5,141 bases of DNA from an uncultured Clostridia bacterium (GTDB lineage: Bacteria; Bacillota_A; Clostridia; Oscillospirales; Oscillospiraceae): positions 1-5,141 of the forward strand of contig CASEPH010000356.1 of the NCBI GenBank assembly GCA_949289625.1, written 5' to 3'. The first letter of the stretch is position 1, and each line of letters opens with the position of its first letter. The position numbers were made by a program, and so were the translations under genes. Of the stretch, positions 93 through 5,141 are shown piece by piece. The notes under the pieces were generated by a model that worked only from the letters and a program-made list of their open reading frames with translations, was not told the DNA's origin and did not search any database.

Positions 93-128
93 AGAAAAAT
101 AGCATGGTGCAAATACATTGCACCATGC
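93..128 (-). terminator. possible Rho-independent terminator of the 211-residue gene (alternative reading of dyad A)
   Basis: On the minus strand the 10-bp perfect stem GCATGGTGCA/TGCACCATGC with a 7-nt loop is followed directly by TATTTTTCT. It lies 95 nt past the stop codon of the 211-residue gene. Stem and U-rich tail fit an intrinsic terminator, though the loop is large and the tail is interrupted. It may serve as both terminator and operator. Confidence 0.35.
102..128. promoter_or_regulatory. dyad element A, 10-bp arms, probable operator
   Basis: This is a perfect inverted repeat: GCATGGTGCA, a 7-nt spacer (AATACAT on plus), then TGCACCATGC. Its 19-bp core is nearly the same as element B. 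Read on minus, its left end abuts a possible extended -10 (TGCTATTTT, 104-96), and the position expected for a -35 falls inside the dyad, so a bound repressor would block this weak promoter. The same hairpin followed by TATTTTTCT can also be read as a minus-strand terminator (separate entry). The matched second copy favours the operator reading. Confidence 0.5.
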
Positions 129-2393: not shown

Positions 2394-2810
2394 TCACCGC
2401 TCCCTGACATGGGATCTTCTTTTTGCATGGGCAGGTCCAGGACGTGCCCGCCGCGGAGCGGCTGTCTCCAGAGGAAGTTCCTTCAGTTCCACAGATAAGG
2501 GCTGGGAGGCGTTCTCCAGCAGCTTCTTCAAGCTGTGCTGCGCCCCGATATCGGCCACGTCGATCTCATTGACGCACCGGCTCAGCCAGGGGAACTCTGC
2601 CGCCAGCTGCTCCATCAGTCTTATCACACCCAGAGTTGTCAGCCTGTCCAGGGAGACATAGACGGAGGACTGCCGATGTTCAAAACCGTGGTCCTTCATA
2701 AATCGTCGGATGTCATAGTATGCCTGCGTATAGGACTGCGGATAGGATTGTTTGAGGGACTCTTGGCACAGGTCAAAGGCGATCTGCTTTCGGCTTCCTC
2801 TGCCCGCCAT
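2394..2810 (-). CDS. vapD: VapD-like endoribonuclease (Cas2-like fold)
   Basis: The 138-residue product resembles VapD, a small ribonuclease toxin related in fold to Cas2. The family pattern is readable: first strand with the conserved FD (QIAFDL, residues 9-14), a helix with YxxAYxDIRRFM (about 27-38), GFEHRQSSVYVS (42-53) matching the VapD second strand (GF..TQGSVYV), then the LTTLGVIRLMEQL helix and a PWLSRCVNEIDVADI segment. VapD proteins are usually about 90-100 residues; this one adds a 35-40 residue tail ending in a Pro/Arg-rich basic stretch (from about 119). The ATG at 2810 follows the upstream stop after a single base, with GGAGGG (2825-2820) inside the upstream gene, so the two are translationally coupled. 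Family assignment is good; toxicity and RNA cleavage are inferred. Confidence 0.82.
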   Translation of the reverse strand: MAGRGSRKQIAFDLCQESLKQSYPQSYTQAYYDIRRFMKDHGFEHRQSSVYVSLDRLTTLGVIRLMEQLAAEFPWLSRCVNEIDVADIGAQHSLKKLLENASQPLSVELKELPLETAAPRRARPGPAHAKRRSHVRER

Positions 2811-2811
2811 A

Positions 2812-3123
2812 TCAGGTCACCCTCCGGTCCCGGACCTTCCACGCCTGGGACAGCACATCTTCCCGCGTACCGTTGTCATCCTGCCAAATGCAGGAGGCGG
2901 CCAGGTCGGGGAACCAATCCGTCCGCAGCAGTCCCATGATGACCGCCCACAGATCAGCGAAGTCATCCTTGCCGCCGCTGCCTGTGAAGGAGAGCATATC
3001 TTCCTTCTGAACACAGCGCAGACCCCGCGCTTCAAAGTTCTGTTTGACAGTTTCCCACACAGCGGCCAGGGGATAGCCCTGCCGCTCCACCTTCTGCCGG
3101 TCAAATGTAATATCAACTCTCAT
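2812..3123 (-). CDS. small VapD-fold-like partner protein, candidate antitoxin
   Basis: This 103-residue protein is encoded just upstream of the VapD-like gene, separated by 1 nt. GGAGGTG (3136-3130) lies 6 nt before the ATG. I do not recognise a named family, but its layout parallels the VapD-like neighbour: strand MRVDITFD with the FD pair at residues 7-8, helix AVWETVKQNFEARGL (21-35), strand RCVQKEDMLSFTGS (36-49), helix DDFADLWAVIMGLL (53-66), then TDWFPDLAASCIW (68-80), comparable to the W..SV.DI segment of VapD. It lacks the SSVYV core. A degenerate VapD-fold subunit that pairs with VapD and restrains it is the most attractive reading. It remains an inference from by-eye alignment. No convincing promoter is seen upstream, so it may once have been cotranscribed with the methyltransferase gene. 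Confidence 0.75.
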   Translation of the reverse strand: MRVDITFDRQKVERQGYPLAAVWETVKQNFEARGLRCVQKEDMLSFTGSGGKDDFADLWAVIMGLLRTDWFPDLAASCIWQDDNGTREDVLSQAWKVRDRRVT

Positions 3124-3211: not shown

Positions 3212-3307
3212 TCACGCACACGGCTCCAGTTCCAGTTCCTTCCTGATCCGCTCCCCGGCCAGCCTTAGCGAAATATATCGGCCTGCTGCTGATTTTTTCA
3301 CAGACAT
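3212..3307 (-). pseudogene. orphan 3' end of a DNA methyltransferase gene
   Basis: A 31-codon frame on minus ends in TGA (3214-3212). Its middle encodes RLAGERIRKELE, nearly identical and in the same frame as the RLARGRIRKELT end of the methyltransferase gene at the right edge; the DNA matches at 31 of 33 positions. The upstream 14 codons (ATG at 3307, MSVKKSAAGRYISL) do not match the methyltransferase and have no ribosome binding site, so this is probably not an independent gene. It lies 88 bp upstream of the VapD partner gene, where the original methyltransferase 3' end would be expected before the AbiE genes were inserted. Confidence 0.6.
3233..3265. repeat. left copy of a 33-bp direct repeat flanking the AbiE cassette
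   Basis: On plus it starts CAGTTCCTTCCTGATCCG and ends GGCCAGCCT. It matches 4916-4948 at 31 of 33 positions (differences at 3252 and 3256), in the same orientation. Similarity stops sharply on both sides. It encodes the RLAGERIRKEL part of the orphan methyltransferase end on minus. Confidence 0.85.
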
Positions 3308-3321
3308 TTCAGCCGAAGCCC

Positions 3322-3350
3322 TTTACTTTCGTGCCTATATGAGTTATTAT
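3322..3350 (+). promoter_or_regulatory. probable promoter of the AbiE operon
   Basis: TTTACT (3322-3327), a 17-nt spacer and TATTAT (3345-3350) form a plausible sigma-A promoter. The predicted transcript start falls about 18 nt before the abiEi ATG, leaving a short leader that still carries the ribosome binding site. The -10 lies inside an inverted-repeat operator. Confidence 0.55.
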
Positions 3351-3358
3351 ATGGGCAC
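3331..3358. promoter_or_regulatory. inverted-repeat operator for autoregulation by AbiEi
   Basis: GTGCCTATAT (3331-3340) and ATATGGGCAC (3349-3358) are inverted repeats with 9 of 10 positions matching around an 8-nt spacer. The dyad covers the -10 and the likely transcript start. AbiEi antitoxins are known to bind inverted repeats in their own promoter and repress it through the N-terminal winged helix, so this is the expected binding site. Confidence 0.65.
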
Positions 3359-3374
3359 AAAGGGGGAATATCCT

Positions 3375-3968
3375 ATGTCTGGTTTCGACATTCTGGACAG
3401 TCTGGTCCGCAGCGGCAACGGTTTATTGCGGACTGCAGATGCCGTTTCTGCCGGGATCTCCAAGCCTATGCTTGGAAATTATGTGCGGGAGCGAGGCTTC
3501 GAGCGTGTAGGCCATGGGCTCTACCTTGCCCCAGATGCCTGGAAGGATGGGATGTATCTGCTTCAGCTGCGCTGTCCGCAGGCTGTATTCTCTCACGATA
3601 CCGCTCTTTTCCTTCACGATCTGACAGATCGGGAACCATCTGTTTACACTGTGACTGTAAAAAGCGGATACAATCCACACCGCTTAAAGGATGACGGTGT
3701 AAAAGTATACCGCATCAAATCGGATCTGCACGATCTGGGCCTGTCACAAACAAGTACACCGTTCGGAAATCCGGTAGCGGTCTATGATTTGGAGCGCACT
3801 GTCTGTGATGTAGTCCGCAGCCGCAGCGGTATGGATGCCCAAATCATCCGTGACGCGTTGAGGCGGTTTGTTGGCCGGAGAGACAAGGATCTGCGCCGGC
3901 TGATGCGCTATGCCAGGGTGTTCCATGTAGAGAATATCATCAGACAATATTTGGAGGTCCTGTTATGA
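3375..3968 (+). CDS. abiEi: AbiEi-family antitoxin and transcriptional repressor
   Basis: From the ATG at 3375 the protein has 197 residues. This start is preferred over ATGs at 3339 and 3351 because AGGGGG (3361-3366) lies 8 nt before it, and because the earlier ATGs fall inside the operator and promoter. The N-terminal winged helix (about 1-50) has the family look: LLRTADAVSAGISKPMLGNYV then GFERVGHGLYL. The C-terminal domain carries SHDTALFLHDLTDREP (73-88), SGYNPHRL (97-104), FGNPVAVYDLERTVCDVVRSR (130-150) and the RQYLEVLL end typical of AbiEi. In type IV AbiE systems this protein counteracts the AbiEii toxin without stable binding and represses the operon. Its stop overlaps the abiEii start (ATGA). 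Length and motifs look complete. Confidence 0.93.
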   Translation: MSGFDILDSLVRSGNGLLRTADAVSAGISKPMLGNYVRERGFERVGHGLYLAPDAWKDGMYLLQLRCPQAVFSHDTALFLHDLTDREPSVYTVTVKSGYNPHRLKDDGVKVYRIKSDLHDLGLSQTSTPFGNPVAVYDLERTVCDVVRSRSGMDAQIIRDALRRFVGRRDKDLRRLMRYARVFHVENIIRQYLEVLL

Positions 3969-4891
3969 TCAAAACATCCAGGCAGTTAAAAGACCGGATC
4001 AACAATCTGGCACGGAAAAACGCGGCGGATGCACAACTTCTCATGCGGAATTATATGATGGAGCGCTTTCTGGAACGTGTTTCACTCTCCCGCTTCAAAG
4101 AGAATTTCGTTTTAAAAGGCGGAATGCTGGTTGCGGCCATGGTAGGGTTGGACGCCCGATCCACTATGGATATCGATGCGACGATCCAGGGCACAGCGGT
4201 GGATGTCGACCAAGTCAACGACATGATCTCCGAGATCGTCTCTATTCCTGTCAACGATGGCGTTTCCTTTTCCATAAAAAGCGTCTCTGAGATCATGGAC
4301 GAAGCAGAGTATCCTGGTGTGCGGGTATCCATAGAGACGATGTTCGACGGGGTACGTACTCCATTTAAGATTGATATCTCTACTGGCGATGTGATCACCC
4401 CGGGAGAGGTTCACTGCCATTTTCATCTGATGTTCGAGGAGCGGACCATAGAATTATTGGCCTATAGCTTGGAGACTGTTTTGTCCGAGAAACTGGAAAC
4501 AGTTATTTCCCGCGCTGCCACCAACACCCGCATGCGAGATTTTTATGATCTCCACACTTTATATCAACTCTATAGCGAAACCTTGACGGCACAGATCCTG
4601 TCAGACGCACTCTACGCAACAGCGAGAAGGCGTGAAACGGTCCGGCTGCTGTCTGGGGCAGAGGATGTGCTGCGGGAACTTGCTGACGATCCCCATATAA
4701 GAAAACTTTGGGGTACTTACCGCACAAGGTACAGTTACGCCTCTGAACTTCCATGGGATGTCATTCTCACCTCCGTCCGGCGGCTTTGTATCGCTGCAGG
4801 GCTTGCGGTCGAGCCGCCAGAGGTCGCTCTGCCGAATCCCGCCAGGACACCGGCCAAGGCAGCTCCGCACAAGAAGGGAAAAGACCGTTGA
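3965..4891 (+). CDS. abiEii: AbiEii nucleotidyltransferase toxin
   Basis: This 308-residue protein is of the AbiEii/AbiGii (DUF1814-type) nucleotidyltransferase family, the toxin of type IV systems first known from phage abortive infection. Characterised relatives such as MenT modify tRNA acceptor ends. All four family motifs are visible: KGGML (51-55), STMDIDATI (66-74) with D69 and D71, FKIDISTGD (134-142), and SEKLETVISR (174-183) followed by RDFYDLHTL (191-199). The ATG overlaps the abiEi stop by 4 nt, and GGAGG (3953-3957) lies 7 nt upstream. The C-terminus is a Pro/Ala/Lys-rich, probably disordered tail (about 284-308). The gene ends 9 nt from the convergent methyltransferase stop, with no terminator between them. 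It appears intact, so activity is likely. Its substrate is not shown by the sequence. Confidence 0.94.
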   Translation: MIKTSRQLKDRINNLARKNAADAQLLMRNYMMERFLERVSLSRFKENFVLKGGMLVAAMVGLDARSTMDIDATIQGTAVDVDQVNDMISEIVSIPVNDGVSFSIKSVSEIMDEAEYPGVRVSIETMFDGVRTPFKIDISTGDVITPGEVHCHFHLMFEERTIELLAYSLETVLSEKLETVISRAATNTRMRDFYDLHTLYQLYSETLTAQILSDALYATARRRETVRLLSGAEDVLRELADDPHIRKLWGTYRTRYSYASELPWDVILTSVRRLCIAAGLAVEPPEVALPNPARTPAKAAPHKKGKDR

Positions 4892-4900
4892 CATCCACGC

Positions 4901-5141
4901 TCATACCGCCTGTGTCAGTTCCTTCCTGATCCGCCCCCTGGCCAGCCTCGCGTACTCGTCTGTGACCTCGATGCCTGTGGCGGCGTAGCCCTCCAGCACA
5001 GCGGCCAGCACGGTGGTGCCGCTGCCGGCGAAGGGGTCCAGGATATGGCCTCCCGGTTCGGTGATCTTCACGATGTCCCGCATCAGCTGGAGGGGCTTCT
5101 CCGTCAGGTGGATGCGCTTCTGGGGATTGCCGTACTTGAAC
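4901..5141 (-). CDS. C-terminal part of a beta-class DNA methyltransferase (5' end outside window)
   Basis: The frame is open to the right edge and stops with TGA (4903-4901), giving 79 visible codons. They hold the C-terminal landmarks of amino-methyltransferases with permuted (beta) order: HLTEKPLQLM, then the SAM-binding motif I DPFAGSGTTVLAAVLEGY, then GIEVTDEYARLARGRI. The DPPY catalytic motif and target recognition region would lie off the window, so N6-adenine versus N4-cytosine specificity cannot be told. It is probably a solitary or element-encoded methyltransferase; no restriction gene is visible. The last codons (RLARGRIRKELT) are encoded by the right copy of the 33-bp repeat, and the final residues QAV differ from the orphan end (ELEPCA) at 3212. 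Confidence 0.9.
   Translation of the reverse strand, partial: FKYGNPQKRIHLTEKPLQLMRDIVKITEPGGHILDPFAGSGTTVLAAVLEGYAATGIEVTDEYARLARGRIRKELTQAV
4916..4948. repeat. right copy of the 33-bp direct repeat flanking the AbiE cassette
   Basis: It matches 3233-3265 at 31 of 33 positions, at a fixed offset of 1683 bp and in the same orientation. It lies inside the methyltransferase coding sequence and ends 13 nt from its stop codon. The repeats enclose abiEi, abiEii and their promoter and nothing else. Confidence 0.85.

Follow-up and report, generated by a model that had tools for sequence, protein, structure and literature searches.

The AbiE toxin-antitoxin pair of the window, a stretch of 5,141 nucleotides from an uncultured Clostridia bacterium (assembly GCA_949289625.1, contig CASEPH010000356.1), lies between the 3' end of a methyltransferase (MTase) gene and the stump of a second MTase 3' end, and probably arrived through recombination between MTase copies instead of through a site-specific integrase. 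Flavonifractor plautii ATCC 29863 (locus L031) likewise has a second MTase piece beyond AbiE, and the closest corresponding sites without AbiE are loci L016 and L017. The features of the window that bear on this reading are:

2394..2810, minus strand: VapD family gene, 138 aa (NCBIfam NF041506, 124.6 bits; cut-off 100).
2812..3123, minus strand: 103-aa gene adjoining VapD, 63-64% identical at the corresponding place in L016/L017.
3212..3271, minus strand: stump of an MTase 3' end (...AGERIRKELELEPCA) of L016/L017 type, assigned by sequence comparison, which holds the left 33-bp copy (3233-3265); its upstream edge is uncertain by a few nt.
3272..3310, no strand: AbiE-side flank common to the window and L031 (27/39 nt), with its outer edge the putative recombination joint.
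3331..3358, no strand: imperfect inverted repeat 5' of AbiEi, a possible (predicted) AbiEi operator (arms 9/10 complementary, 8-nt spacer).
3375..3968, plus strand: AbiEi antitoxin/autoregulator gene (Pfam PF13338, 26.8 bits, cut-off 25; PADLOC AbiEi, E 7.6e-70), 85% identical in L031.
3965..4891, plus strand: AbiEii toxin gene (Pfam PF08843, 144.5 bits; PADLOC AbiEii, E 9e-99), 80% identical in L031.
4901..5141, minus strand (ORF 4901-5140): C-terminal part of the MTase, ending ...RIRKELTQAV (Pfam PF01555, N6_N4_Mtase, 57.7 bits), cut by the window end.
4916..4948, no strand: right 33-bp copy, within the MTase 3' end (repeat comparison).

The two 33-bp copies are identical at 31 of 33 positions, with a start-to-start spacing of 1683 and a longest common exact stretch of 19 nt, and local alignment of the MTase tail to the left flank gives a score of 60, compared with a maximum of 36 in 2000 dinucleotide-preserving shuffles. 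The coordinates and the shuffle test bear out the first-pass annotation, in which AbiE was bracketed by this repeat and reversed relative to its surroundings, with the AbiE genes on the plus strand and their assigned neighbours on the minus strand. The right copy forms the present end of the MTase gene, as proposed, and the left copy belongs to the stump of an MTase-VapD junction. The left copy does fall in the suggested 31-codon orphan (3212-3307, minus strand), but this ORF is only partly MTase, with its last ~20 codons corresponding to the MTase tail and its start matching L031 DNA beyond AbiE. Positions 3272-3310 form a gapless continuation of the homology with L031 (1/2000 shuffles equally good), and as this AbiE-side homology runs beyond the AbiEi promoter as far as 3272, where the MTase tail starts, the 31-codon ORF is a fusion of both. 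An MTase origin of the ~40 nt beside the AbiE promoter is not supported for the window, with 46/300 shuffles equally good against the L031 MTase and 295/300 against its own; in L031 the result was borderline (3/300).

The AbiE pair looks intact and ordinary and, judged by its sequence, is a type IV toxin-antitoxin pair. The two genes overlap at 3965-3968 in the bicistronic antitoxin-toxin order of the AbiEi/AbiEii families, with an in-frame ATG upstream of AbiEi at 3339. The AbiEii motifs given in PMC3985639 are hG[G/S]x15DhD, a motif III lysine/arginine, and a motif IV aspartate, with mutation of the lysine, arginine, and aspartate reported there to abolish the toxicity of the AbiEii studied. 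By eye, the translation of the window AbiEii contains KGG-x15-DID, a SEKLETVISR stretch with K and R seven apart (motif III), and after it RDFYDL, such that the lysine, arginine, and aspartate needed for toxicity elsewhere are present. According to the same paper, AbiE confers phage resistance and stabilises mobile elements, and PMC11062541 describes AbiE as helping to stabilise an ICE of Streptococcus suis; like characterised AbiE pairs, that of the window presumably acts to stabilise its element, to abort phage infection, or both. The window AbiEi promoter has a single imperfect inverted repeat, whereas characterised AbiE autoregulation uses two, and no inverted repeat was found upstream of AbiEi in L031 at the threshold used for the window.

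When the MTase C-terminus was used to scan genome contigs, 56 loci (L002-L057) emerged, with record titles mostly of Oscillospiraceae, Oscillibacter, Flavonifractor, or other Clostridia; these loci are not independent, as some come from one isolate or are nearly identical. The 103-aa VapD neighbour lies downstream of the MTase in 24 of the 56, starting 74-88 nt past the MTase stop in 20 and 382-698 nt past it in four (L002, L005, L007, and L015), and no AbiE was found in the 24 within the locus DNA examined. The predicted MTase-VapD locus without AbiE therefore exists, in 20 of 56 loci. In the closest empty sites, L016 and L017, the MTase ends in ...RELEPCA and the VapD pair follows across a similar spacer, with the Fic gene of L017 87% identical to that of the window. 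Loss of AbiE had been expected to restore an MTase ending in ...KELELEPCA; the ELEPCA tail is present at L016/L017, but the natural end is two codons shorter. One member of the supposed VapD pair is a VapD gene (2394-2810), but the other (2812-3123) is a neighbour with no family match in Pfam, NCBIfam, or PADLOC. Elsewhere on the minus strand of the window, a Fic family gene lies beside a small nucleotidyltransferase gene resembling MntA antitoxins (1191-1988 and 1948-2277; NCBIfam score of the latter type 38.3, below the cut-off of 60), and a 211-aa ORF (223-858) has no Pfam or NCBIfam match.

L031 is the only one of the 56 MTase loci with AbiE, and the ends of its MTase and AbiEii genes are 9 nt apart, as in the window. 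Beyond AbiE, L031 positions 5435-5483 match nt 613-661 of its own MTase ORF at 40/49 (score 62, maximum 41 in 2000 shuffles, 0/2000 equally good), and positions 5474-5507 match nt 751-784 at 27/34 (score 40, maximum 38, 0/2000), with the two diagonals 99 nt apart and the piece internally deleted. In L031 as well, AbiE is thus flanked by an MTase 3' end on one side and by a decayed further copy of it on the other. A 188-aa ORF beyond AbiE was rejected as an ordinary gene, its first part being the decayed MTase piece, and its sole match among 400 genomes is L031's own genome. The genes downstream of AbiE in L031 differ from those of the window: they are a 108-aa ORF and a 43-49% identical relative of the ORF directly after the MTase in L015 and L021. 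When 65 MTase loci other than the window were scanned for a second tail copy, each against its own 20 shuffles, L031 exceeded its shuffles by 5 matches (26 vs 21 of 33) and L009, L010, L053, and L099 by 1 to 3; the other 60, L007 and L015 among them, did not exceed theirs.

In minus-strand coordinates, positions 1-1820 of the window match L031 (82%) and positions 1876-2750 match L017/L016 (80%), the DNA past the MTase stop being L031-like and that beyond AbiE L017-like again. The MTase body is closest to L017 (185/198 nt vs 176/198 for L031), and at the 23 sites where the L017 and L031 MTases differ the window is L017-like at 15, L031-like at 5, and like neither at 3. Amongst the readings offered by the first-pass annotation, a product of homologous recombination fits best. 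An incoming unit consisting of an MTase 3' end and AbiE, of the type seen in F. plautii, would have entered a resident locus of L017 type (MTase-VapD) by recombination within the MTase 3' region. The resident MTase would have gained the tail of the unit (TQAV) and then AbiE, and its own former tail, ELEPCA followed by VapD, would have been left as a stump on the far side of AbiE. Such a short repeat could result from a single crossover of Campbell type and a later deletion inside the redundant copy; we infer the crossover, its direction, and the trimming from these alignments. Counting against recombination, the arrangement is present in only one genome besides the window, so that the donor type is represented by L031 and two metagenome proteins, the latter known as protein sequences, and 5 of the 23 informative MTase sites are L031-like. 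Furthermore, the MTase piece starts at nt 613 in L031 and in the tail in the window, suggesting that the joint formed twice or that trimming of the window copy stopped exactly at the edge. An IRKEL stretch is common to both window copies and absent from L031, L016, and L017, and recombination of this kind would therefore need an unseen resident allele.

The same end product is given by a tandem of the form MTase-AbiE-... followed by MTase-VapD, collapsed by illegitimate deletion of nearly all of the second MTase. This is consistent with the multicopy MTase loci of several isolates (for example L002 and L013, or L004, L005, and L028, each set under one record title) and with a joint, at ~3271/3272, that lacks clear homology on its two sides; however, no tandem intermediate occurs among the loci examined, and we consider such a collapse unlikely. 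It is quite improbable that the 33-bp copies are att sites at the gene 3' end, at which a recombinase acting in trans introduced AbiE while restoring the coding end. The position at a gene 3' end, the direct repeat, and the regenerated coding end suit such sites, as does the exact entry of other cargo at the MTase stop, with the extra gene of L007 and L015 beginning at the stop and ending at the spacer found immediately after the stop in L008. However, neither L007 nor L015, nor 58 further MTase loci, shows a second tail copy that exceeds its own shuffles, and the MTase piece of L031 starts away from the 33-bp position and is internally deleted. No recombinase was recognised among the ORFs between the 33-bp copies, where the only family matches are the AbiE genes, in agreement with the first-pass annotation, and no constant core recurs at both ends across the two insertions. 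Integration of the att type, which that annotation had likened to this arrangement, is disfavoured because of this absence of a recombinase together with the differing starts of the MTase pieces. An assembly chimera of two MTase loci, whilst conceivable for loci that are similar and multicopy, is very improbable given a longest exact match of 19 nt and the same MTase-AbiE-MTase piece order in L031, an isolate assembly.

To find further loci that join MTase and AbiE, AbiEii was sought in overlapping sets of 7, 400, 58, 20, 18, 394, 299, and 40 genomes at cut-offs of 1e-3 to 1e-120, the 18-genome search having no positive control. Within these sets, AbiEii of at least 80% identity was found only at the L031 place, with the next best at 61-63%. 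AbiEii is present in 47 of 115 loci, most of the 47 spanning only ~1.5 kb to each side, with the MTase also present in only L031 and L058, which are the same place. Viral contigs yielded one 52% AbiEii relative, without MTase, and no matches in scans with the L031 ORF beyond AbiE or the L017 VapD partner, and plasmid and phage records gave no megablast match to the window. By protein, the MTase was found in 45 phage and 15 plasmid records at identities of at most 60%, except for three unannotated fecal contigs (72-82%), and none of these records has AbiE or VapD. Metagenomes hold AbiEii clusters at 77-98% identity (P0001-P0015). The P0013 AbiEii, on 12 contigs of up to 160 kb, ends in SSCSIRSLARLAYSPVTSMPVAV, the antisense of the L031 MTase tail, and that of P0010 ends in an antisense MTase reading matching one of L031; as the P0013 AbiEii runs into the antisense MTase tail, the junction recurs in metagenomes. 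Amongst the best 120 of 611 AbiEi relatives, which were checked for an N-terminal extension (other left flanks), the closest lengths are 197-205. No MTase-end docking site for AbiE is described in the titles and abstracts found by a search of the open-licence literature.

As anticipated, other loci carry different genes after the MTase stop, among them the VapD operon and Fic, HipA-like, and DUF genes. A VbhA antitoxin (PF18495) and Fic follow the MTase in L028, a HipA-like protein that scores under the Pfam cut-off in L036 (with a similar start in L038), DUF3849 in L034, DUF6329 in L029, DUF7768 in L053, and ORFs without family match in L006, L021, and L045. Other cargo between the same repeats, also anticipated, was not found, with L031, the sole clear second tail copy, again holding AbiE. 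L004 has an MTase tail and spacer identical to those of L003 but lacks the VapD pair, indicating that the slot loses cargo too, and an apparent Fic C-terminus scrap directly after the MTase stop in L018 and L098 (49% over 45 residues in L018) would be a deletion scar in this slot. Of the 44 related loci whose downstream sequence extends for at least 4 kb, 32 have a relaxase there, that of L023 matching PF03432; the window ends before that region. AbiE appears to occupy the MTase-side edge of a zone of variable cargo in mobile elements of gut Clostridia, a zone that runs from the MTase gene to, in related loci, the relaxase region.

Between the cargo and the relaxase region are short palindromes, picked up in a scan for arms of at least 7 nt, which vary between elements and in some cases form pairs; they may delimit the cargo zone at its far end. 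Those of the window (102-128, also 71-124) and of L017 (~3674 nt after the MTase stop) are of one type, GGTGCAAATACATTGCACC, and others occur in L018, L027, L030, L034, L035, L036, L038, L039, L041, L051, L053, L054, L057, L098, and L104.

The components described here are ordinary; it is the scar that is informative, with its structure suggesting how toxin-antitoxin cargo may be swapped at the border of a cargo zone with no dedicated recombinase involved. More tentatively, the MTase 3' end could be a recurrent homologous docking port, with AbiE, and perhaps other cargo, carrying an MTase 3' piece. Were this the case, RecA-dependent single crossovers into different elements would regenerate the MTase and leave a decaying stump each time, amounting to an integrase-free exchange of cassettes at a gene end. 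In elements of gut Clostridia, toxin-antitoxin genes and other cargo are worth seeking at the position after the MTase stop.

Mobile elements can integrate at gene 3' ends with att direct repeats, keeping the coding end. The window resembles such integration in its direct repeat at a gene 3' end, but has no recombinase inside and shares no constant core with L031. In Campbell-type, or homology-facilitated, insertion, homology on one side suffices, a partial duplication flanks the insert, and the gene end is regenerated. An insertion of this type would account for the same features in the window, as read from its DNA, although the duplicate there is only about 60 nt. The AbiGI/AbiGII pair of PDB 9hlo matches the window pair by sequence comparison (AbiGII E 4.5e-41, AbiGI E 4.5e-27), and its members are distant relatives. 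AbiE type IV systems, including those of streptococcal ICEs, are alike in having two overlapping genes, antitoxin first, both with family matches, and the report on ICESsuHN105 (PMC11062541) likewise places AbiE in a mobile-element neighbourhood. In contrast to known AbiE systems, the pair of the window, known here from its sequence, lies reversed at an MTase 3' end and is accompanied by a duplicated MTase stump.
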